This document shows positions 6,441 to 63,128 of a stretch of DNA of 64,000 nucleotides, one piece after another. Position numbers and translations under genes: made by a program. The notes under the pieces were generated by a model. That model made no database searches. It saw nothing but the letters and a program-made list of their open reading frames with translations, and had not been told where the DNA came from. This stretch comes from an uncultured Clostridia bacterium. GTDB taxonomy: Bacteria; Bacillota; Clostridia; UBA1381. Position 1 is the first letter of the stretch. Every line of letters begins with the position of its first letter. The stretch is taken from positions 39,593 through 103,592 of the forward strand of contig CANPXG010000002.1 in assembly GCA_947585795.1 (NCBI GenBank), written 5' to 3'.

Positions 6441-6626
6441 AGTAATAACCACGATATATAGTGGTTAATGGCGTAAATTTACAACAATATATATGTACAC
6501 GTCATAAATTTGCCACAATAATTATATCCTATTTGCCTTAAATTTACAAGTAAAAGCGTAAAATAAGGTGAAAAGAACGCTCTTTTATAAAAAAAGCTAT
6601 TGCATTTTTCATCATTTTAATGTAAA

Positions 6627-6684
6627 ATGGAGTTAATGGGAGTGAATTGGAGGGATTTGGTTAAAAAATCCCGACATGGGAGTG
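6627..6684 (+). promoter_or_regulatory. MraZ-box-like array: TGG-starting repeats in 10-bp phase
   Basis: TGG at 6628, 6638 (TGGG from 6637), 6648, 6658 and 6678 (TGGG from 6677), just upstream of the mraZ RBS. Confidence 0.7.
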
Positions 6685-6722
6685 CTCCGCCACTGAAATG
6701 ATGCGAAAGGCAGGTGACATAT

Positions 6723-7166
6723 ATGGTAAACTTTGTTGACGAGTATCCACGTCAGCTTGACGAGCGCGGAAGAATTATTTTGCCCGCCAAGGTGAGGGAG
6801 GCTATGTCGGGTATCGTGTATGTCACGCGTTCGATGTCGGATAAGTGCCTGTACTTGTATCCGAAGGAGGAGTGGGAAAGAATTTCCGAGAAAATCAACC
6901 GTTTGCCAACCGCCACCGATAGGAACGCGGCGGCTTTCGCGCGTTTGTTTTTCGGTAAAGCGACCTGCTCCGACGTGGACAAGCAGGGCAGAGTGCCCGT
7001 GTCGAAGCGTCTTATCGAGTACGCGGGACTTAAAAAGGACGTTGTGCTCGTAGGCGCGAATACGCGGCTCGAGCTTTGGGACAACGAGGAGTGGGAGAAC
7101 TATCAGCGCGGTGTTTCCGACGACATTATGATAGAAGGTATTTCGGAATACGGACTTAATATATGA
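6723..7166 (+). CDS. mraZ: Transcriptional regulator MraZ
   Basis: VNFVDEYPRQLDERGRIILPAKVRE, ARLFFGKATCSDVDKQGRVPVSKRLIEYAGL. Confidence 0.92.
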   Translation: MVNFVDEYPRQLDERGRIILPAKVREAMSGIVYVTRSMSDKCLYLYPKEEWERISEKINRLPTATDRNAAAFARLFFGKATCSDVDKQGRVPVSKRLIEYAGLKKDVVLVGANTRLELWDNEEWENYQRGVSDDIMIEGISEYGLNI

Positions 7167-7181
7167 TGAGAGGAATACGCG

Positions 7182-8114
7182 ATGGAGTTTAAGCACGTTT
7201 CGGTACTGCTTGAGGAGAGCATTGAAGCGCTGAACTTAAAAATGGGCGGCGTGTATGTTGACGCGACGCTGGGCGGCGGAGGACATTCCTTCGGGATATT
7301 GTCCGCGTGCGGCGGCTGCACGGTCATAGGTATAGACCGTGACGCGGAGGCGATAGAGGCGGCGAAAAAACGCCTTGAGCCGTTTTCGCAAAGAGTTACG
7401 ACGGTAAACCGTAATTTCAGTGAGATCAAGGACATACTTTTGTCGCTGGGAGTAAGCGAAATAGACGGCGCGGTCATGGACCTCGGCGTAAGCTCGTACC
7501 AGCTCGACAACGCCGACAGAGGCTTTAGCTACATGAAAGACGCGCCTCTTGATATGAGAATGAGTCAGACCTCGCCAAAAACGGCGCGGGAGATAGTAAA
7601 CTCGTACTCATGTGAGGAATTGACGCGGATATTTTATGAGTACGGCGAGGAAAAGTGGTCAAAGCGGATAGCGGAGTTTATCTGTGAGCGCCGCGCGGTA
7701 AAGCCATTGGAAACAACGTTCGAGCTTGTGGACGCGATAAAGGCGGCGATACCGAAAAAGGCGCGCTCGGACGGCGGTCACCCCGCAAAGCGCGTGTTTC
7801 AGGCGATACGTATCGAAGTGAACGACGAGCTTTCCGTATTGGAAAATTCGGTGAGGGATTTTGTGTCGGTGCTGAAAACAGGCGGCAGGATAGCCGTTAT
7901 AACGTTTCACTCTCTCGAGGACAGGATAGTTAAAAGAACGTTTAAGGAACTGGAAAAGGGCTGTATTTGCCCGAAAGAGTTTCCCGTGTGTATGTGCGGG
8001 AGAAAAAGCGAAATAAAAATTATTTCAAAAAAGCCCATCCTCCCGACAGGGGAGGAGGCGCGGGAAAATCCCCGCAGTAAAAGCGCGAAGCTCCGCGTAG
8101 CTGAGAAACTTTAA
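7182..8114 (+). CDS. rsmH: 16S rRNA (cytosine1402-N4)-methyltransferase
   Basis: [58 protein letters not shown]. Confidence 0.96.
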
Positions 8115-8126
8115 GGAGAGGTTATT

Positions 8127-8624
8127 GTGGATCACGGAAATTTGGCGTACAGGCTGCCGGAAGAGTATGAGGAGCCTGTAAGAAGAAGAAAACCACAAGT
8201 AAATAGAGCAAGGAACAGAAGGAATCGTGAAGAAATGCTAATCAGGAGTAAAAATATGCGCAGAATATGCGCGATAGTGGTAGTAGCATTGTCGGCAGGA
8301 TTTATGATTTCCCAATTTGTGACAGTAAACGAAAACGCTCAGGCAATAGCTTCTCTGCAAAAGCAGCTTACCGAGATGGAGTCGGCGACAAGTCAGATGG
8401 TATTCGACATGGAACAGAGCGTCGATCTCGCGGAGATAGAAAAAGAGGCAACGACAAGACTCGGTATGCAAAGACCTGAGAAGTATCAGACTGTATACGT
8501 AAACGTCAAGCAGGACGATATGACGGAAAAGACCGCGGGCGAGGTCGAGGGACTCGGTAACAGCATAATGTCCGCGCTTAAAAAGATAGGCGGTCATATT
8601 GTGGAATTTTTCAGCATAAAATAA
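8127..8624 (+). CDS. ftsL: FtsL-like cell division protein
   Basis: Position between rsmH and PBP; one TM segment followed by coiled coil; GTG start after RBS. Confidence 0.65.
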   Translation: MDHGNLAYRLPEEYEEPVRRRKPQVNRARNRRNREEMLIRSKNMRRICAIVVVALSAGFMISQFVTVNENAQAIASLQKQLTEMESATSQMVFDMEQSVDLAEIEKEATTRLGMQRPEKYQTVYVNVKQDDMTEKTAGEVEGLGNSIMSALKKIGGHIVEFFSIK

Positions 8625-8673
8625 AGTCTGTAGGGTCCTGTAGTTATTTAAGAGGAATTGAGAAAGAAATTAA

Positions 8674-10956
8674 ATGAAGCCATCATTAAATGAAATAAGA
8701 AAAAAGACGCTTATAATGATGCTTATAGTGACCGGCGTGCTGGTGCTTTTGATAGCGAGAGTCGCGTACTGGCAGATAATCAGGGGCGAGGAGCTTTCAA
8801 GCAAGGCTAAGGCGCAGCAGCAGGGGAGCAGCATTATAACGGCGTCGAGAGGAAGTATATACGACCGTAACGGTAAGGTGCTCGCGGAGAGCGCGTCGGT
8901 GAATACGCTTATTTGTAATCCGGAGGATATTAAAGAGGACGGTGACGCGGCGGTTATAGCGTCGAGGTTGTCGCCCATTCTTGACATGGATCAGGCGAAG
9001 ATCACGGAGCTTATAACAAAGGATGCGCGTTATCAGGTGATAAAGAAGCGTCTTACCACCGAGCAAGCCGACAGCGTAAAGCAGCTGCTCGATCCCGAAA
9101 ATGACGCGGCGACCGCGAAGGCGTTTACGGGTATTTATTTTGAGGATGACTCGAAAAGGTACTATCCGTTTAACGTCGCGCCGCATACTCTCGGTTTCAC
9201 CGGTTACGATAATAACGGTATACAGGGTATAGAGCTTACGTTTGACGATGAGCTTATGGGACGTAACGGCAGCGTGGAAACAAATCAGAACGCCGACGGC
9301 AGCACGCTCAAGGAAGAACAGGCGGAGTACATAAACGGTGCGCAAAAGGGTGACGATATTGTTCTTACGATAGATGAAACGATACAGCATTTTTTGGAAA
9401 ACCACCTCCAGGAGGCGGTGAGCGAGGATAAGCTCAAAGAGGGTGCGGCGGGTATAGTGATGAACCCGAAAACGGGGGAAATACTGGCTATGTCCACGAA
9501 GCCCGACTTTGACGTGAACGATCCTTACAATATAGAACAGTTTCAAAAGTACGCGATAGATTTTAAACTTGACGAGGAAAGTGACGATGAGGATGAGGAT
9601 GAGGACGGTGAGGCTACGCCCAAGCCGACCATGGATCCGAAAAATCCGAGCGATGAATATATAGCGGCGATGCGTAATAAAATGTGGCGCAATAAGGCTT
9701 TGTCGGACACGTATGAGCCAGGCTCCACGTTTAAGATAATCACGGCTGCCGCGGCTTTGGAGGAGCATGCCGTAGATCTTGACACGGCGTTTTACTGCCC
9801 CGGCTTCAAGGTGGTGGCGGACAGAAAGATAAGCTGCGCCAACAAAAACGGACACGGCGCTCAGACGTTTGTCGAGGGCGTAAGAAATTCGTGTAACCCC
9901 GTGTTTATGGACGTGGGTGAAAGACTTGGCAGCGACAAGTTTATGGAGTATTTTACCGCATTCGGTCTTACCGAAAAGACGGGTATAGAGCTTGTGGGTG
10001 AGTCATCGAGTATATATTACCATAACGGTATGAGTGAGGTAGACCTTGCGACAAGCTCGTTTGGTCAGGGCTTTCAGGTGACGCCGATACAGCTTATTAC
10101 GGCTGTGTCCGCCGTAATAAACGGCGGCGTGCGTATGAAGCCGCAGATAGTGAAGGAAATCAGGAACAGCGGCGGCGTTATAAAAACGTACGAGCCGGAA
10201 ACGGTGACGCGCGTGATTTCAGAGGACACGTCGCAGAAAATGCGTGAGATATTGGAGTCGGTAGTGGCGCTGCCGGAGGCAACGGGTAAAAACGCGTATG
10301 TGAAGGGCTGCCGCATCGGCGGTAAGACGGGTACGTCGGAGAAGGGTAACCGTAACGAGGAAAAGCGTATCGCGTCGTTTATAGGTTTCGCGCCCGCGAA
10401 CGATCCCGAGATAGTGTGCCTTATAATGCTTGACGAGCCGCAGGTCGACAATAAGTACGGCGGTACCATCGCCGCGCCTGTAGTGGGTGAGCTTATTGAG
10501 GATATACTCAATTATCTCGGTGTTGAGAAACAGTATACGGCGGACGAGGAGCCGGACGTGAAGGTCGAGGTTCCCGATGTGCGTACGATGGATGTTTCGG
10601 CGGCGAAGAGCGCCGTGACGGAGAAAAATTTGTATGTGACGGTAAAAGGCGACGGTGACACCGTCGTAGACCAGCTCCCGAAGCCCGGTATAATGCTCGG
10701 TGAGGAGTCTACCGTAATTCTTTATACGGAGCAGCAGGAAAAGACGCAGGAGGTTACCGTGCCCGATCTTGACGGTATGTCGGTAAGCTCCGCGAGGGAT
10801 ACTCTCGAGATGCGCGGACTTAACTTTGAGGTCGTCGGCGCGGGACACAGCGAGGTTGGCGGCTCGTATGCCGTGAGCCAAAGCATAGAGGCGGGAGAAA
10901 CAGTGCCGCCGGCCACGGTGATAGGAGTGGAATTCCGTCAAGTGACTTCAGATTAA
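8674..10956 (+). CDS. Class B penicillin-binding protein (SpoVD/PBP2B type) with PASTA domains
   Basis: GSIYDRNGKVLAES, YEPGSTFKIITAAAAL (SxxK), GGKTGTSEK (KTG), C-terminal PASTA repeats (VPDVRTMDVSAAKSAV, VPDLDGMSVSSARDTL). Confidence 0.93.
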   Translation: MKPSLNEIRKKTLIMMLIVTGVLVLLIARVAYWQIIRGEELSSKAKAQQQGSSIITASRGSIYDRNGKVLAESASVNTLICNPEDIKEDGDAAVIASRLSPILDMDQAKITELITKDARYQVIKKRLTTEQADSVKQLLDPENDAATAKAFTGIYFEDDSKRYYPFNVAPHTLGFTGYDNNGIQGIELTFDDELMGRNGSVETNQNADGSTLKEEQAEYINGAQKGDDIVLTIDETIQHFLENHLQEAVSEDKLKEGAAGIVMNPKTGEILAMSTKPDFDVNDPYNIEQFQKYAIDFKLDEESDDEDEDEDGEATPKPTMDPKNPSDEYIAAMRNKMWRNKALSDTYEPGSTFKIITAAAALEEHAVDLDTAFYCPGFKVVADRKISCANKNGHGAQTFVEGVRNSCNPVFMDVGERLGSDKFMEYFTAFGLTEKTGIELVGESSSIYYHNGMSEVDLATSSFGQGFQVTPIQLITAVSAVINGGVRMKPQIVKEIRNSGGVIKTYEPETVTRVISEDTSQKMREILESVVALPEATGKNAYVKGCRIGGKTGTSEKGNRNEEKRIASFIGFAPANDPEIVCLIMLDEPQVDNKYGGTIAAPVVGELIEDILNYLGVEKQYTADEEPDVKVEVPDVRTMDVSAAKSAVTEKNLYVTVKGDGDTVVDQLPKPGIMLGEESTVILYTEQQEKTQEVTVPDLDGMSVSSARDTLEMRGLNFEVVGAGHSEVGGSYAVSQSIEAGETVPPATVIGVEFRQVTSD

Positions 10957-29894: not shown

Positions 29895-32800
29895 ATGAAA
29901 AAAACAAAGAAACTGCTGTCATTGCTCACCGCGGTGGCGCTGACGGCATCGTCCTTCGCGGCGCTGACTGTTCCGGCGAGCGCGGCGGAAAAGTATAAGC
30001 TTGACTTAACGGGCGCAACGGCGGGACAGATCACCATGAAAGCACCGGACGGCGCTAATGATGAAACAGTAGCGACGTACAGCGTAGCTGACTTCGGTGA
30101 AGCAGCAACCGCAACAACCAAGCAGGTTACACAGCTTGATGGTTGGGGTTATAAGCATTACGGCTTGTCAAACAATATTACAGATGGTCATCAGGCGCTT
30201 GCCGGAATTAACGTTGAAGATAATTATGTATATGTTACCACGGTAGGTAATAAAGGAACTAACGCTGCCCTGTCATTTATTCCCAAGAATGTTGAAAATT
30301 TGTCGTTGGCTACCAGTGGCGTTTTGGAATACAAATTTGACGCGGCTTCGGTATTAACAGGCGGTAGCAATGTTGGTACGTTTACATACGGTTTTACATC
30401 CGCGGATGATGGAACTACTGTAACAGACGTAGGCTCAACTCAATTAAGTTCGGACATAACAACAAAAACTGCGATGATAATGGTGTACGACCTTGACAAC
30501 AGTCAATACCATATATTCAAAGACGGCATAAGAGTTGCGACAGGCAGTGTTACAACTCCGATAACCGGTATTTTTGTTCAGGCAAAGAGCGAAGCATATG
30601 CTGAGGGAAGAATAGGAGATCTTGTTCTTTCGGAGGAGGAAGCTGCTCCCGCTACAGGTACGGTAACATTTAAGAAAGAAGGCGGTACGGAGGATTATAA
30701 ATCATATACGGCGCTTGACGGCGCAACAATTCCCGTTCCTACGCCTGATGTTGTTGAGGGAAAGACATTTACAGGCTGGGTTAAGAACAGCGAGGGTGAA
30801 GCTCAAAAGCTTGAAAACGTTACGGCGGCGGCAGGCTCGAATGATGTTTATGTTGCTACCTATAAAGAAGGTTCAGACCGTTCCAATATAACAATAAAAT
30901 CTACTGCATTTACAAAAGTCGAGCTTACTCAAACTGCAAAAGCAGAGGATTTGGAAGACAGTACATTAACGCAAGCTGCCATTACCGGCTATACAGATGC
31001 CACAGGTACTTTCTCAGCGAATCAGATCGTAAGAGGCACGTATTCATATAAGCTTACAAAGACAGGTTACACGTCAAAGGAAGGCACCATTGAGCTTGGC
31101 ACTACGACAACTGAGAAGACAGATACGTTAGAGCTTGATGATGAACATACGAAATATGCTTACTTTGAAACAGACTGGATAAATGGTACAGGTTCTATAA
31201 GCTGTAATGCTGTCGACAGAACAGTTAACACAAATCTTGCGGCTGCCGATGTCGTTCTGCCGGCTACAGGTGGCAATGTTGATATATTTACAGTTCACGT
31301 AACAGCTAAGTATACTAAAGGTACAAGGGCTAATTCTGTCGGAACATGGATACTTAAGACAGAAAAAAGCGGATCCGCCGGATTGCTGGGACTTCAATGG
31401 ACACAGGGGGATGGTGCATACGCGTTCACAGACTGGAAAGGTAACGAGAACCCACAGGATGCTGCAGATGCGATAGACAAGGCTACTAACAAAATTAAGA
31501 TTCTTGAGGATGCTGCTATAGATACGCAAATAAATATTGATTTTGTCGTAAATCCTACAGCTAAATCCATAACCGTAAATTACAATGGTGATACAATAGG
31601 CTCGCTCCCGATTCCGGAAGCTAACGACGGCTTCACAGCGTTACAATCTATGACTTTGGGTTCATATCGCGAGGTTACATCTGTTACAATAGATGAATTG
31701 TCTGTTGAGAAGCCGGATCCCAACTTCCTTGCTATCAACGGCGATACAAAGTTTGCAAAAATTGCCGGTCAAACAGTGACGAGAGAATATACAAAATCCG
31801 AAACGGTCGTAAACGAAGAAGAAGAATTTACGTGGACAGTTAAGGATACACAAGGTCAGGATGTTACCGGTGTTACTATTGAGGACGGTGTACTGAGTGT
31901 AACTGAGGCAGCTACACCGGGCGATGTTGTAATTACTTGCACAAGCACTACAAATGACAAAAAGACAGCTACACTTACTGTAACTATAGCCGATTTCCAA
32001 AAGCCTGTAATTGAGGCGGACGGACCTATGGCGTACGTTAATAAAGCAAACGCTAAAGGTCAGTATAGTGTAGTATCTGCTGTTGACTCATTTGGAACAG
32101 AATACAAAGACTTATTTGACGCGAAGTGGACATCGTCTACTCCGGCGGTTGCGACTATTGATGAAGAAACGGGCGAGCTTACAGTTGTAGGCAAGGGTGA
32201 AACAACAATTACAGTTTCTATCACAAACGGCACAATCAATGGCGAACCTAATGTTGCGACAGCTGAGATCCCCGTAGTTGTTGGAGATTTCTATATAACC
32301 GGCGATGTTGAGGGTAGCGCGGCTTCTACTGAGGTTGATTTAAAGGATATAGCTGTTGCGGATAAGTATCTTGTAACAACGGCGGACGCTAGCGGTAATC
32401 AAGTTAAGCAGACAGAAATAGACTTGAATGCAACTAAGACGATTGCTGCGGATGCAGGTGTTAAGATTACAGCTACGTATGCAGATGGAACCTTGACAGA
32501 TGTTTCAGCGCCGGTAGATGTTGCGGTAGGAACTGAAATCGACTTAACTCCGGCTGACGCGAATACAAAGGTATTCTTCTGGAAGAGCCTTGCTTCAATG
32601 GAGCCGGCTAAGACAAAGACGGAAAAGGTTTATGACGGCACAAAGATAAACATCGACACAACAGACGCGGCTAAGTACGAGGTAGCTCCGATATTTGAGG
32701 CTGACACGATAGGCGCGGGCGATGAAAGATATACATTTGCTATACCGGCTGACACATACAACTTTACTGTTACTATGAGTGGCAGAAGAGCAGACATATA

Positions 32801-33752
32801 TTCAAACGATCAGCTTCTTATAAACAACATGCTCCAGTATGGATCAAAAGCTACAGACGTTGTAAATGATATAGTTGTATCTGAGGGCTATGCAAAGATG
32901 CACACAATGGACTATGAGAAAAATGCAACAGCTGTAACAAGTGTTGTAGAAGCGATTGAAGTTGTTAAGAGCCCGTCAATTGTAACAAGAAAGACAAAGA
33001 TGTACGTGCTCGGTGATTCACTTGTAGCTAAGTATTACAACGGTGGCAGTGCTGAAAATAATCTCCAGCAGACAGGTTGGGGACAGGTTCTTCAGGACTA
33101 CATAACCGATGACATTGAAGTTGTTAACCTTGCAAACTCTGGTGTAACGGCTCCCGGACTTTACGGCAGTGCGTTTACGCAGATTCAGCAGAGCGCTAAG
33201 GACGGCGACTACTTCGTGCTTGAAAGTGGATATAACGACAAGACGTATGAAACAGAGGATAAGATGAAGACTGCTGTAAGAAATATGGTAGATGAATCGC
33301 TTGCAAAGAATATGAAGCTGATTCTTGTTTCGCCTAACGCTTCACAGCATGACTACAGTGCAAGCGTAGCTTGGACATCCTACATGAAGCAGGTTGCTGA
33401 CGAATATATGGGTGCGGGCGAAAAACATAGCGATAACGTAGACTATATTGACCTTTCAGCTATCAGCTATAAGTTCCTCCATGACAAGTACGGAGATCCA
33501 TACGGTGCTGACGGCGATCCGACTGTAGATAAGGCGCAGTTGAACGATTTGTCAAAGATATACAACGTATCAGACGTACTGCACTCGACATACAACGCGG
33601 CTAACTGCTGGGCAGCTGTAATTGCTCAAAATATCAAGGCAATTTGGGGCGACCACATGGTTAAGGTAGATCATACCTACACATTTAAGGATGGCAATAA
33701 TGAGGACATCACAGTAGGTGTAGGCAAAATGCCGACACTTGACGGCGAATAA
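29895..33752 (+). CDS. Large secreted modular protein with Big2-like domains and C-terminal SGNH esterase (CE12-like)
   Basis: Signal peptide KKTKKLLSLLTAVALTASSFAALTVPASA; DAKWTSSTPAVATIDEETGELTVVGKGETTITVSI; C-terminal MYVLGDSLVAKYY, QQTGWGQVLQDY, NLANSGVTAPGLYG, LESGYND. Confidence 0.82.
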   Translation: MKKTKKLLSLLTAVALTASSFAALTVPASAAEKYKLDLTGATAGQITMKAPDGANDETVATYSVADFGEAATATTKQVTQLDGWGYKHYGLSNNITDGHQALAGINVEDNYVYVTTVGNKGTNAALSFIPKNVENLSLATSGVLEYKFDAASVLTGGSNVGTFTYGFTSADDGTTVTDVGSTQLSSDITTKTAMIMVYDLDNSQYHIFKDGIRVATGSVTTPITGIFVQAKSEAYAEGRIGDLVLSEEEAAPATGTVTFKKEGGTEDYKSYTALDGATIPVPTPDVVEGKTFTGWVKNSEGEAQKLENVTAAAGSNDVYVATYKEGSDRSNITIKSTAFTKVELTQTAKAEDLEDSTLTQAAITGYTDATGTFSANQIVRGTYSYKLTKTGYTSKEGTIELGTTTTEKTDTLELDDEHTKYAYFETDWINGTGSISCNAVDRTVNTNLAAADVVLPATGGNVDIFTVHVTAKYTKGTRANSVGTWILKTEKSGSAGLLGLQWTQGDGAYAFTDWKGNENPQDAADAIDKATNKIKILEDAAIDTQINIDFVVNPTAKSITVNYNGDTIGSLPIPEANDGFTALQSMTLGSYREVTSVTIDELSVEKPDPNFLAINGDTKFAKIAGQTVTREYTKSETVVNEEEEFTWTVKDTQGQDVTGVTIEDGVLSVTEAATPGDVVITCTSTTNDKKTATLTVTIADFQKPVIEADGPMAYVNKANAKGQYSVVSAVDSFGTEYKDLFDAKWTSSTPAVATIDEETGELTVVGKGETTITVSITNGTINGEPNVATAEIPVVVGDFYITGDVEGSAASTEVDLKDIAVADKYLVTTADASGNQVKQTEIDLNATKTIAADAGVKITATYADGTLTDVSAPVDVAVGTEIDLTPADANTKVFFWKSLASMEPAKTKTEKVYDGTKINIDTTDAAKYEVAPIFEADTIGAGDERYTFAIPADTYNFTVTMSGRRADIYSNDQLLINNMLQYGSKATDVVNDIVVSEGYAKMHTMDYEKNATAVTSVVEAIEVVKSPSIVTRKTKMYVLGDSLVAKYYNGGSAENNLQQTGWGQVLQDYITDDIEVVNLANSGVTAPGLYGSAFTQIQQSAKDGDYFVLESGYNDKTYETEDKMKTAVRNMVDESLAKNMKLILVSPNASQHDYSASVAWTSYMKQVADEYMGAGEKHSDNVDYIDLSAISYKFLHDKYGDPYGADGDPTVDKAQLNDLSKIYNVSDVLHSTYNAANCWAAVIAQNIKAIWGDHMVKVDHTYTFKDGNNEDITVGVGKMPTLDGE

Positions 33753-33765
33753 ACCCAAAACAAAA

Positions 33766-33791
33766 ACACACCCTTCGGGGTGTGTTTTTTT
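33766..33791 (+). terminator. UUCG-tetraloop intrinsic terminator
   Basis: ACACACCC-TTCG-GGGTGTGT-TTTTTT after the stop codon of the upstream gene. Confidence 0.85.
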
Positions 33792-34041
33792 ATGTTTTTT
33801 TGTGTGTTTTTTTGCGCGTTTTTGTGTGTTTTTTTGCGCGTTTTTGTGTGTTTTTGCGTGTTTTTTGCGTGCTTTTTGCGTGTTTTTTTGCGTGTTTTGT
33901 GTGCTTTTTGCGTGTTTTTATGTGTTTTTTATGTGTTTTTATGTGTGTTTTTATGTGTTTTGTTGCGCGTTTTTGTGTGTTTTGTTGCGCGTTTTTGCGC
34001 GTTTTTTGCGTATTTTTTGCGCGTTTTTGTGTGTTTTTTTT
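33780..34041 (+). repeat. Phased T-tract array: 24 units of (G/A)YGYG-T4-8, mean about 10.9 bp
   Basis: Hand-parsed units of 9-13 bp totalling 262 bp, beginning at the terminator 3' stem. Confidence 0.85.
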
Positions 34042-34078
34042 GTATTCCCAATCCCTCTCGTGCCGCACAAAACCTATT

Positions 34079-34705
34079 CTATTTCCCGCTTTTGCACACC
34101 TCGCCAACGGGACAAATACCGCATTTAGGGTTCCGCGCCGTGCAGCACGCCCTCCCGTGCGCCACAAATTGGTGACACAATCGCACCCCGCGCTCAGGCG
34201 GCACGATCTTTCTCAAATCGGCTTCCACTTTCGTGGGATCGTCGTTCGACGTAAGCCCTATGCGCTTCGCGATACGCTTGCAGTGCGTGTCAACGACTAT
34301 GGCGGGCTTGCCAAAAATGTCGCCGAGCACGAGGTTGGCGGTCTTTCTGCCCGTGCCGGCAAGGCTTGTCAGGTCCTCCATCGTGTCGGGCACCTCGCCG
34401 CCGTACACCGCCAAAATGCGTCGGCAGCACTCGATGATGTTGCGCGCCTTGTTGCGGTAAAAGCCGCACGACTTGATGTCCTCGCAAAGCTCGTCGTAAT
34501 CGGCGTTCGCAAAGTCCTCCGCCGTTTTGTATTTCTTGAACAAGTCCTTCGTCACGATGTTTACGCGCGCGTCGGTACACTGCGCCGAAAGCTGTGTCGC
34601 GATGAGCATTTGAAGCGGCGTTTCGTATTCGAGCGTGCATTTCACGTTCGGGTAAGCCGCGTCCAAAAGCGGTATTAATTTCGCTATGCGCTCCTTTTTT
34701 GTCAT
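34079..34705 (-). CDS. nth: Endonuclease III
   Basis: LIATQLSAQCTDARVN, LTSLAGTGRKTANLVLGDIFGKPAIVVDTHCKRIAKRIGL, C-X6-C-X2-C-X5-C cluster at C-terminus. Confidence 0.95.
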   Translation of the reverse strand: MTKKERIAKLIPLLDAAYPNVKCTLEYETPLQMLIATQLSAQCTDARVNIVTKDLFKKYKTAEDFANADYDELCEDIKSCGFYRNKARNIIECCRRILAVYGGEVPDTMEDLTSLAGTGRKTANLVLGDIFGKPAIVVDTHCKRIAKRIGLTSNDDPTKVEADLRKIVPPERGVRLCHQFVAHGRACCTARNPKCGICPVGEVCKSGK

Positions 34706-48433: not shown

Positions 48434-48476
48434 CGGACATATCAGGGCTTTTTTCACCCTATATGTCCGCTTTTTT
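48434..48476 (+). terminator. Intrinsic terminator after GH43
   Basis: CGGACATAT-c-AGGG-loop-CCCT-ATATGTCCG-CTTTTTT. Confidence 0.8.
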
Positions 48477-48942
48477 CACTTATTTTCGCTTATTTTTACC
48501 CCGTTTTCGCCCGCTTTTTCGCCTATTTTAGCTTATTTTTACCCTGTTATCGTCCGTTTTTTACCTGCTTTTGCACCGTTTTTACCCTGTTATCGTCCGT
48601 TTTTTTCACCTGTTTTGGCTTATTTTTACCGCGTTTTCGCCCGTTTTTTCACCTGTTTTGCGCTGTTTTTACCGTGTTAGCGTTCGTTTTTTCGCCTGTT
48701 TTCGCTGATTTTTGCCGCTTTTTCGTCCGTTTTTTCGCCTGTTTTGCGCTGTTTTTACCGCTGTTTCGTCCGTTTTTTACCTGCTTTTGCACCGTTTTTA
48801 CCGTGTTATCGTCCGTTTTTTCACTTGTTTTCGCTGATTTTTACCTCGTTTTCGCCCGCGTTTTCGCCTGTTTTGGCTTATTTTTACCTCGTTATCGTTC
48901 GTTTTTTACCTGCTTTTGCACTGTTTTTGACCGTTTTTGCAC
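48468..48942 (+). repeat. Eleven degenerate ~43-bp tandem repeats carrying phased T-tracts
   Basis: Unit starts at 48468, 48512, 48555, 48598, 48642, 48685, 48728, 48771, 48814, 48857, 48900; consensus near CGTTTTTTCRCCTGTTTTGCGCTGTTTTTACCGYGTTWTCGTC. Confidence 0.9.
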
Positions 48943-48974
48943 CTATTTTTAATGTAATTTCACCTTATTTTGAA

Positions 48975-50321
48975 TTAATTTTCCTCTTTTTTGTCTTTTG
49001 GGAACGTGACGTACATGGTCGTGCCCTCGCCGACCTTGCTTTTCACTCTTATTTCCGCGTTGTGGCAGGCGCAGACGTGTTTGACTATGGAAAGTCCAAG
49101 ACCGGTGCCGCCGACCTTTTTCGAGTGGCTTTTATCCACTCTGTAAAAGCGCTCGAAGATCCTTTCGGTTTCGTCCTCGGGTATGCCGATACCGGTATCC
49201 TTTACGGAAAATTCCACGCCGTTTCCGGTTTCGCCGACGAACACGGTTATTTTGCCGCCATCCTTGTTGTATTTCACGGCGTTGTCGAGTAGATTATAGA
49301 CAAGCTCGCCGATAAGCGTCGGATTGCCCTTTATGAGCGCGGGAGCCTTGCTGTAAAATATCTGTATACCGCGCTCCCTCGCCGCCTTCTCTATCACGCG
49401 TATCGCATCCTCGGTTATACGCGACAGATCCACCGTTTCCGCGTCCTCTATGCCGCCGATCTCGTCCAAGCTCGAAAGATTTATTATGTCGTCTATAAGC
49501 GTCAGGAGCCTGTCGGACTCCTTTTCTATCTTTTTGCTGAACTCGCTTATATCCTCGCTCTTAGCCATGCCGTTATTTATCATTTGCGCGTAGCCGGAAA
49601 TCGCAGTGAGAGGCGTTTTAAGCTCGTGCGACACGTTCGCGGTAAATTCGCGGCGTATCTTCTCCGTCCTCGCTCTTTCCTCGTTCTCGTTCGCTATACG
49701 CTCCAAAAACGGCTTCAGCTCGTCGTATATCTTGGTTTCTCGTATATTGTTTATATCAATACTGTTTATGGGTTCCATTATGTTGCGCGTAAGACGTTTC
49801 GATATATAGAACGCCGCCGCGATCACCGCGAGAAGTATCGCCGCGACTATGGGCACAATACCCATCGTCATACCGCGCACGACGTTTGTCGGCTGCGCCA
49901 GACGCAGGACGTTTCCGTCACTCATTTTCACGGCGTAATAATATATCCGTCCGCCCGTCGTGCTCGATTTTCTGCTTCCCTCGCCGAAGCCTTTTTCAAA
50001 CGCTTCGACTATCTCAGGTCTTTCCATATGGTTATCCATGCTTGGCGCGTCCCCGGTATTGTCATAGAGCACGCTGCCGCCGCCGTCGACGAGCGTCACG
50101 CGCAGATCCGCCGCGCCGTCGTACGCGTTATGGAGTATACCGAGAACGCTGTCCTCGCTGTATTTCTCGAGGCATGAAGCCATCAAATCCGCGCGGGAGC
50201 GTATGTCCTCGTGCTCCTTTAGCGAAAACTGAGCGTAATACGCCACAAAGACAAGCAGCGTAGTTACAAGAACTGCGGATATGGTGAATATCCGCAGTGT
50301 ATTATTTATAACCTTTCTCAT
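48975..50321 (-). CDS. phoR: Sensor histidine kinase (PhoR-like)
   Basis: EFTANVSHELKTPLTAISGYAQMI, NLLDNAVKYNKDGG, VKDTGIGIPEDETERIFERFYRVDKSHSKKVGGTGLGLSIVKHV; follows PhoP-like regulator. Confidence 0.88.
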   Translation of the reverse strand: MRKVINNTLRIFTISAVLVTTLLVFVAYYAQFSLKEHEDIRSRADLMASCLEKYSEDSVLGILHNAYDGAADLRVTLVDGGGSVLYDNTGDAPSMDNHMERPEIVEAFEKGFGEGSRKSSTTGGRIYYYAVKMSDGNVLRLAQPTNVVRGMTMGIVPIVAAILLAVIAAAFYISKRLTRNIMEPINSIDINNIRETKIYDELKPFLERIANENEERARTEKIRREFTANVSHELKTPLTAISGYAQMINNGMAKSEDISEFSKKIEKESDRLLTLIDDIINLSSLDEIGGIEDAETVDLSRITEDAIRVIEKAARERGIQIFYSKAPALIKGNPTLIGELVYNLLDNAVKYNKDGGKITVFVGETGNGVEFSVKDTGIGIPEDETERIFERFYRVDKSHSKKVGGTGLGLSIVKHVCACHNAEIRVKSKVGEGTTMYVTFPKDKKEEN

Positions 50322-60910: not shown

Positions 60911-63128
60911 ATTCAACGTATTGCGCGGCGCAGTAGGGTGAGTTGGCGATGTTCCACACAAACAGCTTTGTTTCGTCGGCGCTTTCCGATTTTTCGTATT
61001 CTATTTCCACGTCTTTACTTTGCGTTACGGTTTCGGGGTGGTTTTTCAGCCCGATAAGCGCGCCGCTTTCATCGTACTCCGCAACCCAAATATTTACGCT
61101 TTCGTTCACTGGTCTTTTGAGAACGTTTATACGCAGCTTTATGATTCCGTTTTCGTATCTTACGTTTCCTATTTCCAAAATATTCGTCATTTGCGGCACC
61201 GGCACGGGCGTTGCTGTCGGCTCCGCCGTCGGCACGGGTGTTACCGTGGGTGTGGGTGACGGAGCTGCGGTCGGAGTTGGTGTTACCGTGGGCGTGGGTG
61301 ACGGTGTCACAGTTGGAGTTGGAGTTAAGGTCGGTGTTGGCGAAGGTGTCACGGTTGGAGTGGGGGTTGGTGTTACCGTAGGTGTTGGAGCCGGAGTAGG
61401 AGTGGGTGACGGAGTGGGAGTGGGTGACGGAGTAGGCGTTGGTGACGGTGAGGGGGCGGGTGTTTCGCCCGGCAGCAGAACCATGTCCGGATACAACGAA
61501 AAATTATTTAGCTTTTCCTCGCGTATTCGCTTTAAAATCGCGTAACGGTTGGGACAAAGTATCTGCAGCGCGCGCTGACGGTCTTGGTTACCGTAGCACG
61601 TGAAATAAAATCTGCAAAATTCCGCAAAATCCTCCGCCAGATATGTAGGGCTTGAGTTCGCGCCGTAGCTTGAGATAGAGAATATGTCCTTATAGCGCGC
61701 CTTGTCCCATTCACTGTTTTCGGTGTTACCGGTGCCGCCGTCATATGACCAAAAGTACCCTCTTTTGCCGCACCGCGCGTCGAGGCTGTGTCCCATCTCG
61801 TGTATTATGCTGTCAAGTATGGACTGCTCGCTGTTGGGGTGGTTCAGTTCGATATACAAATGCTCTCCCGCGCTGTAGTACGCGTTAAGAGATGAGTACT
61901 CCGACATCAGCGTTTTAATATCCTTTCGGTATATGTACGGAATACAGCCCACTATTTTCTCAAAACGCTCGGCATCCGTTTCGGGGACGTTGTTATTTGG
62001 ATTTACTTCAACCCACATTTCCAAGCTTTGCTTGGTATAACCGTCCGCCTCCGTGATAATCAAATTATAAACGTTAAATTCTTTTGTGTTGTTTTTGCTC
62101 CACGAGTACCAGCTCGGGTGCCCGTATTTGGTCGTCTGCTCTCCGCGTTCAACGGTCACGCCCTGCGTTCCCGGCAAATCCTGCGACACGTGGTAGCTCG
62201 ACTGCAAATTCTTTGTCACGTAGCCGCCGCTTAGGGAAAGATACGAGGCAAGTGAGCTGCGCAGTTGGCTTTCCGAGAGCAGCTTCCCGTTTTTGCAAAG
62301 TGCGTCGATACGACCGCGCGGCGATAAATTTTCAGCCACAGCAGTTCCGTTGCGCTCGAACGCGTCGCCCGCCACACTCTCGTACACGCGCACGATGCGC
62401 TCCCGCTGTTCGCTCGAAAGGGAAGCCCACGCGTCGGACGTGGAAATCTTGTAAAGCGGACTTTCGTCCTTCAGAGGCGTAAACGTAATCGTCGCCTTAT
62501 GCTCCTCGTCGGCGGCGATAATATTTCCGTCCTCCGAAACGCCGATATACATGTCATTTTCAAGACTTTTAAGATAATACGACGGATTTTCCTCGCTGTA
62601 GCCGGCGCTCTTTAATTTCATCCAGTGCTGAGTGTTGTCGTTCATGCCGTAATATTCCGTTGGGTGATTCACGTCCGTGTTTCCGAACTTGTACTGTGAA
62701 GCCGTAAGATTTTCGCCCGTTTTTGCCGACGCGATCCTTAGAGTATAGTCGTTCCACACCTCAACGTTTTCATAAACGTAATCATATTCCTCGTAATAGT
62801 CGTCCCATACCTCGACAAGCTTACGTTCAATGCGCGGTTGATTGGAGCTTCGAACCTCGAACGCGTAGCTGCCGTCAGCCATGTCGCGCGGCAGGAATTG
62901 GTCGCTCATGTCTTGTACGTCCGAATTGTCAATAATAATTTGTCCGTCCTTTTCGCACAGCTTCTGACCGTCGGCGTAGATTTGCTGATATATTCCGGCG
63001 AAGCCGCCGTAAATGACGTCCTCGTTCGCGGCAAGCGCCGTCATAAGCGGCAGCAGGAGGGACAGAGCCGCGATCATGCCGAGCGCGCGCTCAAAAAAAG
63101 CACGTCTTTTTACCGAAAATACACGCAT
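60909..63128 (-). CDS. Secreted zincin-like metalloprotease with Pro/Thr/Ser-rich repeat linker
   Basis: Signal peptide; [20 protein letters not shown] (HExxH) and [14 protein letters not shown]; ([11 protein letters not shown])n linker; C-terminal [12 protein letters not shown] domain. Confidence 0.8.

Follow-up and report, generated by a model that had tools for sequence, protein, structure and literature searches.

Introduction

Phased A-tract clusters, in which A/T tracts recur about every 11 bp, curvature is predicted and a role in nucleoid packing has been suggested, are a general and mostly weak signal in bacterial chromosomes (Tolstorukov et al., 2005, as cited in PMC4132750; Mrazek and co-workers, PMC3431218). 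In E. coli such clusters are about 100 bp long and lie in both coding and intergenic DNA (PMC4132750). Phased A-tracts are also found upstream of single promoters: tandem phased A-tract repeats precede the Mannheimia leukotoxin promoter, where copy number varies within the species, two quoted serotypes carry 2-3 units and the repeats have an enhancer role (PMC2697988), and phased A-tracts lie upstream of Clostridium perfringens plc (as cited in PMC4132750). In Caenorhabditis, PATCs are long non-coding arrays of helix-phased A- and T-tracts spread genome-wide (PMC7725773).

Here we describe arrays from a 64,000-nucleotide stretch of DNA of an uncultured, gut-type Clostridia bacterium (the window) and from the metagenome bin that contains it (G000). 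They share the ~11-bp phasing and predicted curvature of the bacterial clusters; unlike those of E. coli, however, they are 100-600 bp long with up to ~50 tracts, largely intergenic, built of tandem repeats, apparently recent and confined to one lineage. Worm PATCs are the nearest in architecture; they differ in belonging to eukaryotic chromatin and in protecting from germline silencing. The Mannheimia and plc repeats resemble our arrays in their 10-bp units with A-tracts in helical phase, but are enhancers of a few units at single promoters, whereas our arrays have dozens of units at many loci and often lie elsewhere than upstream of a promoter. Bacterial minisatellites (VNTRs) share the tandem duplication, variable length and intergenic placement, yet the periods of our arrays are locked to helical turns, with a common lattice at unrelated loci. 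Among the open papers that we searched, we found none describing a bacterium in which long, young arrays locked to helical turns number in the dozens.

Results

A phased T-tract array between convergent genes

The window features needed below are as follows.

29895..33752, + strand: SGNH/GDSL hydrolase-domain protein (PF00657), 1285 aa, upstream neighbour of the focal array
33762..33789, both strands: intrinsic terminator hairpin, ACACACCC-TTCG-GGGTGTGT, preceded by A5 and followed by T5
33785..34041, + strand: focal phased T-tract array, 24 T4-8 runs with GTGTG/GCGCG/ATGTG-type linkers, lattice ~10.8 bp
34034..34078, + strand: right flank of the focal array, a T-tail copy plus spacer TATTCCCAATCCCTCTCGTG...
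34079..34705, - strand: endonuclease III, nth (PF00730, PF10576)
48449..48992, + strand: second phased array, 43 T4+ runs, mean period 10.74 bp
6560..6669, no strand assigned: weak third phased A/T-tract array, 9 tracts, period 10.25 bp, in the gap before 6633-7510

The first-pass annotation had read the focal locus as 24 phased T-tract units growing out of a terminator tail between convergent genes. We found exactly 24 runs of at least four Ts (33785-34041; lengths 4-8), with starts 10-12 bp apart (mean 10.83 bp) and a centre spacing of 10.85 bp, and the gene strands confirm the convergent gap, with the SGNH/GDSL gene on the plus strand and the endonuclease III gene on the minus strand. TRF called the array at 33780-34043 (periods 10, 22 and 32; best score 224), and the chain of 24 T-runs compares with a mean longest chain of 2.8, never exceeding 10, when the array itself was shuffled 2000 times under a second-order Markov model. 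Its internal repeats of 22, 129 and 151 bp correspond to 2, 12 and 14 turns. The adjoining hairpin AAAAACACACCC-TTCG-GGGTGTGTTTTT (33762-33789) scores as a terminator in both orientations, and its 3' arm and T-tail match the repeat unit of the array, GTGTG-T5-7 being a copy of that arm plus tail. Several relatives carry nth's own terminator within ~40 bp; none lies between nth and the focal array here. An Rfam search returned no known structured RNA (best match isrK, 20.4 bits vs. a gathering score of 50).

Z-DNA-forming repeats are expected to contain an alternating purine-pyrimidine run of ~12 bp or more. The longest alternating pyrimidine-purine run in the focal array is 9 nt and most are 7 (another site in the window has 16), and we therefore rejected the possible Z-DNA propensity that had been suggested for its linkers.

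The second array, which the same annotation had cited as an independent case, is likewise a genuine phased T-tract array. It lies 3' of a hairpin that follows a GH43 gene, is followed by a histidine kinase gene on the minus strand, and contains repeats of 43, 86 and 129 bp and a T6-ACC / T4-G dimer motif. The window also holds repeats of other kinds: a perfect 58-bp tandem repeat at 46-166 (2.1 copies, TGAGGTGAACCACACGTTTGCGTGTGG...) that is off the helical lattice, and 42-bp and 18/36-bp repeats at 61237-61462 (GGTGTTACCGTGGGTGTG...) within a long minus-strand gene, which are probably coding repeats because their periods are multiples of 3.

Array tracts occupy a rigid helical lattice

Tract positions follow a rigid lattice of ~10.76 bp, one helical turn, and not a random walk. 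The variance of the distance between tracts k apart, relative to independent spacings, fell to 0.49, 0.28, 0.21 and 0.16 for k=2, 4, 6 and 8, vs. 0.86, 0.67, 0.56 and 0.49 (k=8 ± 0.14) when the order of spacings was permuted and 0.48, 0.24, 0.15 and 0.12 in a simulated lattice with jitter. Best periods in 29 arrays had a median of 10.78 bp (IQR 10.70-10.82), and intergenic DNA showed a Fourier peak at 10.75 bp (10.86 vs. 4.82 in block shuffles that preserve every tract and linker length). As in phased A-tract clusters, A/T tracts thus stand at helical-repeat spacing.

The tandem repeats within arrays obey the same register. TRF periods in arrays were 11, 21-23, 43, 65, 85-87, 108, 129 and 139 bp, with 43 bp the commonest; in units of 10.76-bp turns they gather tightly around integers (R=0.96, n=35), mostly even ones (22, 43, 65, 86, 108 and 129 bp), whereas repeats outside arrays show no whole-turn clustering (R=0.08, n=58). 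Local repeats within arrays reach 100% identity. Array sequences differ among loci, and between G000 and its sister genome G015 at shared sites, and the lattice stays. We rejected coding repeats for amphipathic helices as an account of the arrays: tract spacings of 10, 11 and 12 bp do not keep to multiples of 3, and periods divisible by 3 make up 7/35 in arrays vs. 40/58 elsewhere. A related layout is seen on contig C37 of G000 (L042:7800-8980), where a gap of ~1.2 kb consists of roughly 85-bp repeats (TATGCGTTATATACACAC...) in helical phase; the G015 gap measures 127 bp.

Arrays are numerous in one genome and rare in its relatives

The annotation had taken two arrays in 64 kb as a sign of a recurrent process, and the wider genome agrees. 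The source bin (2.54 Mb, 130 contigs, 86.5% complete) contains 66 matches, overlaps counted, to a pattern of five T4 blocks every 11 bp, whereas counts in 60 relatives, including 15 from its own genus, run from 0 to 8 per genome. In a set of 392 class genomes the runners-up reach ~15, and in these the matches listed fall in AT-rich sequence or homopolymers. We then applied a detector of A/T tracts (4 bp or longer, 9-13 bp apart), counting arrays of at least eight tracts, to 777 kb of G000 comprising stretches around pattern matches plus 400 kb of other contigs. It returned 36 arrays in this ~0.78 Mb and none in second-order Markov sequences. The whole genome perhaps holds 60-70, a figure that is only a guess because one set of stretches was picked for pattern matches and the other for having no strict matches.

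The genus relatives and about 390 genomes of the class are almost without such arrays. The closest relative compared, G015 (same genus, YvcK 94% identical), has 1.7 long arrays (at least 20 tracts) per Mb, fewer and shorter than in G000, and sampled stretches of G005, G001 and G014 contained no arrays of at least 20 tracts. G033, which belongs to another genus of the same family, has at least two short arrays of this type, with TTTTTCGCACC and TTTTTGTGTGG units (C9:14590-14680 and C32:1652-1731; L086 and L087), and so the process may have begun on more than one occasion.

Arrays occupy every type of gap

That arrays should be enriched at terminators and in convergent gaps was a further expectation of the first-pass annotation, and the genome scan did not support it as a general rule. 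Pooling both G000 sample sets and typing gaps of at least 100 bp with a simple codon-usage gene caller written for this analysis, we found arrays in 6/26 convergent, 13/130 tandem and 9/65 divergent gaps. Hairpins of 7 bp or more were found close to an edge in 6/36 arrays vs. 37/156 stop-codon ends of array-free gaps; two more arrays, at window position 48446 and at L047, have longer-loop hairpins that the scan missed. In tandem gaps the sense strand carries A-tracts in 11/13 cases (one-sided binomial p=0.011), the reverse of what U-tract terminator function needs, and the RNA of these arrays consequently lacks U-runs. Two divergent gaps have a strong promoter match between the array and the far gene, and there the array would be transcribed as a leader. 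The strand of the T-runs showed no consistent agreement with GC or GC3 skew, and orientation by replication strand was rejected.

These counts bear on the possibility that the arrays are terminator-associated elements, for example redundant U-tract terminators between convergent genes. Both window arrays and those at L038, L043 and L047 adjoin terminator-like hairpins, and DNA curvature has been described at prokaryotic transcription-termination regions (as cited in PMC4132750). However, most arrays have no edge hairpin, most lie in tandem or divergent gaps, and the sense strand of tandem genes has A-tracts; the hairpin plus U-tract that would mark an intrinsic terminator at each copy is present at the focal array and not in the arrays overall. 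We consider this explanation very improbable and rejected a terminator-linked origin as a general rule, given 6/36 edge hairpins and the occupation of all gap types. Because of the gap types, hairpin counts and tandem strand bias, the link to terminators and convergent gaps is a property of the two window arrays.

Empty sites and local seeds

Comparison with G015 supports growth of the focal array from the terminator tail, as had been proposed. The SGNH homologue of G015 ends with the same terminator (L252 from 16853), and the DNA directly after it aligns with G000 34034..34078 at a local score of 41 (maximum of 33 in 2000 shuffles; 0/4692 sampled G015 windows reach 41). The T-tail followed by TAT occurs once in G015 and at both array ends in G000. 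The G015 site is empty, and the array unit repeats the terminator's 3' arm and tail. The G015 site is a homologous 3' end and not a case of strict synteny, because the SGNH homologue is only 43% identical and the next gene there is a tRNA, not nth. The nth locus of G015 is identical, in the stretch compared, to that of the rabbit-gut bin Lapin-008__bin58.

Other sites point the same way, including arrays that arose within operons, as between yvcK and whiA. The yvcK-whiA spacing is 17 bp in G015 and mostly 24-72 bp in other readable relatives, and in G000 it holds an array of ~300 bp with a TGAAAATAAG duplication at the array edge. In several relatives RNase R (rnr) ends in a short Lys-rich tail of AAA codons directly followed by rlmL; in G000 this tail has turned into a ~340-bp array that lengthens the Lys-rich protein end and runs past the stop. 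The array over the RNase R 3' end (L031:9517-9855, contig C1 of G000) encodes a long Lys/Asn/Gly-rich C-terminal tail. Seeds elsewhere in G000 include a Lys-codon tail, the end of yvcK and A-rich leaders. In further gaps G015 has short or different phased arrays at G000 array sites. The queA-side gap holds a T-tract array in G000 (L040) and a GC-rich tandem repeat in G015 (L212, C7, about 8526-9025). As in minisatellites, local sequence has been tandemly duplicated, with empty sites in G015. Given the empty sites, the turn-length repeats and the rigid lattice, the arrays are young local tandem expansions of the nearest A/T tract (a terminator tail, Lys codons or a leader) in helical register.

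An assembly artefact of the metagenome bin might be suspected, as G000 is a bin of 130 contigs. Yet the arrays are embedded in contigs as long as 118 kb, with ordinary genes on either side, their units are diverged and non-identical, and the sister genome, although assembled separately, carries arrays in some of these gaps too, which leaves this explanation a negligible probability.

A dimer motif in about half of the arrays

The dimer T6-ACC-n3-T4-G-n5 is common to roughly half of the arrays; the focal array is not among them. With overlaps counted, the motif occurs 32 times in G000 and never reversed, vs. counts of 0-2 per genome in 291 others of the class, and 43-bp identity across loci of motif-type arrays is 0.740 vs. 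0.693 for reversed controls. Curvature alone does not explain the motif. A sequence-specific protein could bind the 21.5-bp dimer in register, making the arrays iteron-like binding platforms, and both the near-exclusivity of the motif and the cross-locus identity favour this. On the other hand, iteron-like platforms would carry one motif in all arrays, and here the same lattice is kept without it in the focal array and in roughly half of the remaining ones; no candidate protein was found; and a dispersed common ancestor could yield the same dimer. We regard such platforms as doubtful.

Predicted curvature and the duplication mechanism

In a wedge model, the predicted minimum ratio of end-to-end distance to contour length was 0.19-0.71 in arrays vs. 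a mean of 0.935 in random 150-bp pieces. Strong bending is expected of AnTn and not of TnAn junctions. AATT and TTAA occur at 11.5 vs. 7.7 per kb in arrays and at 9.6 vs. 7.7 in array-free gaps, and in T-only arrays, at the level of ATTT and TTTA, the direction is reversed. AnTm junctions are thus not clearly favoured over TnAm, which counts against a curvature reading. Mixed arrays support a shared phase of pure A- and T-tracts, in a test that includes AnTm composites and chain selection; a stricter test of pure A-tracts in T-only arrays had only six cases (p about 0.07). We found one HU gene in G000, as in most relatives, with no extra copy, and no special architectural protein. In the literature, a period a little longer than 10.5 bp is taken to suit DNA that is plectonemic and negatively supercoiled (PMC4132750).

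For the focal array we give about an even chance to a recent tandem expansion of the SGNH terminator's T-tail whose phase has been kept as curved DNA. Slipped-strand or unequal tandem duplication would supply the copies, only those keeping A/T tracts on one helix face would persist, and the arrays would act as long, intrinsically curved DNA. The predicted curvature would most likely be read by general architectural proteins of the HU type or by negative supercoiling, through plectoneme placement and nucleoid folding, rather than serve as extra terminators, and the strand choice in tandem gaps may keep U-runs out of most co-transcripts.

The same lattice would arise without selection if the duplication mechanism itself favoured whole turns. 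Arrays could then be neutral satellites grown through a lineage-specific defect or a polymerase or repair habit with a helix-set duplication step, such as slippage while the DNA is wrapped by protein, and the lattice and 43-bp modules would be a functionless mutational footprint. The arrays are young, variable in length and different between sister genomes; every gap type is filled and even a coding tail has been invaded; and duplication has been recent, as seen from local repeats that reach 100% identity, all of which favours neutral growth. Against it, other tandem repeats of the same genomes have no turn preference, the lattice persists where array units have diverged, and the sense strands of tandem gaps are biased to A-tracts. 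We consider neutral growth possible, if somewhat unlikely. Although the data do not separate selection for curved DNA from turn-counting duplication, we lean to curved DNA because of the polarity in tandem gaps and the lack of turn preference in other repeats.

Discussion

For two decades, arguments over what helically phased A-tracts do in bacteria have relied on weak genome-wide averages. The lineage described here has dozens of arrays that are strong, discrete and young, and the sites are empty in close relatives. The way arrays grow, selection (whether off-phase duplications are lost) and effect, be it on the nucleoid, supercoiling or expression, therefore each become testable at single loci. 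The even-turn lengths (43, 86 and 129 bp) at unrelated loci are a clue to duplication of wrapped DNA or to a protein footprint. A bolder reading, to which we assign a low probability, is that the lineage is building a chromosome-folding code of curved four-turn (43-bp) modules, grown from any A/T seed and set in register by an architectural protein; by analogy, it would resemble worm PATCs or nucleosome-positioning DNA, and would be arising now. If that were true, the code could be caught in the act by comparing sister species.
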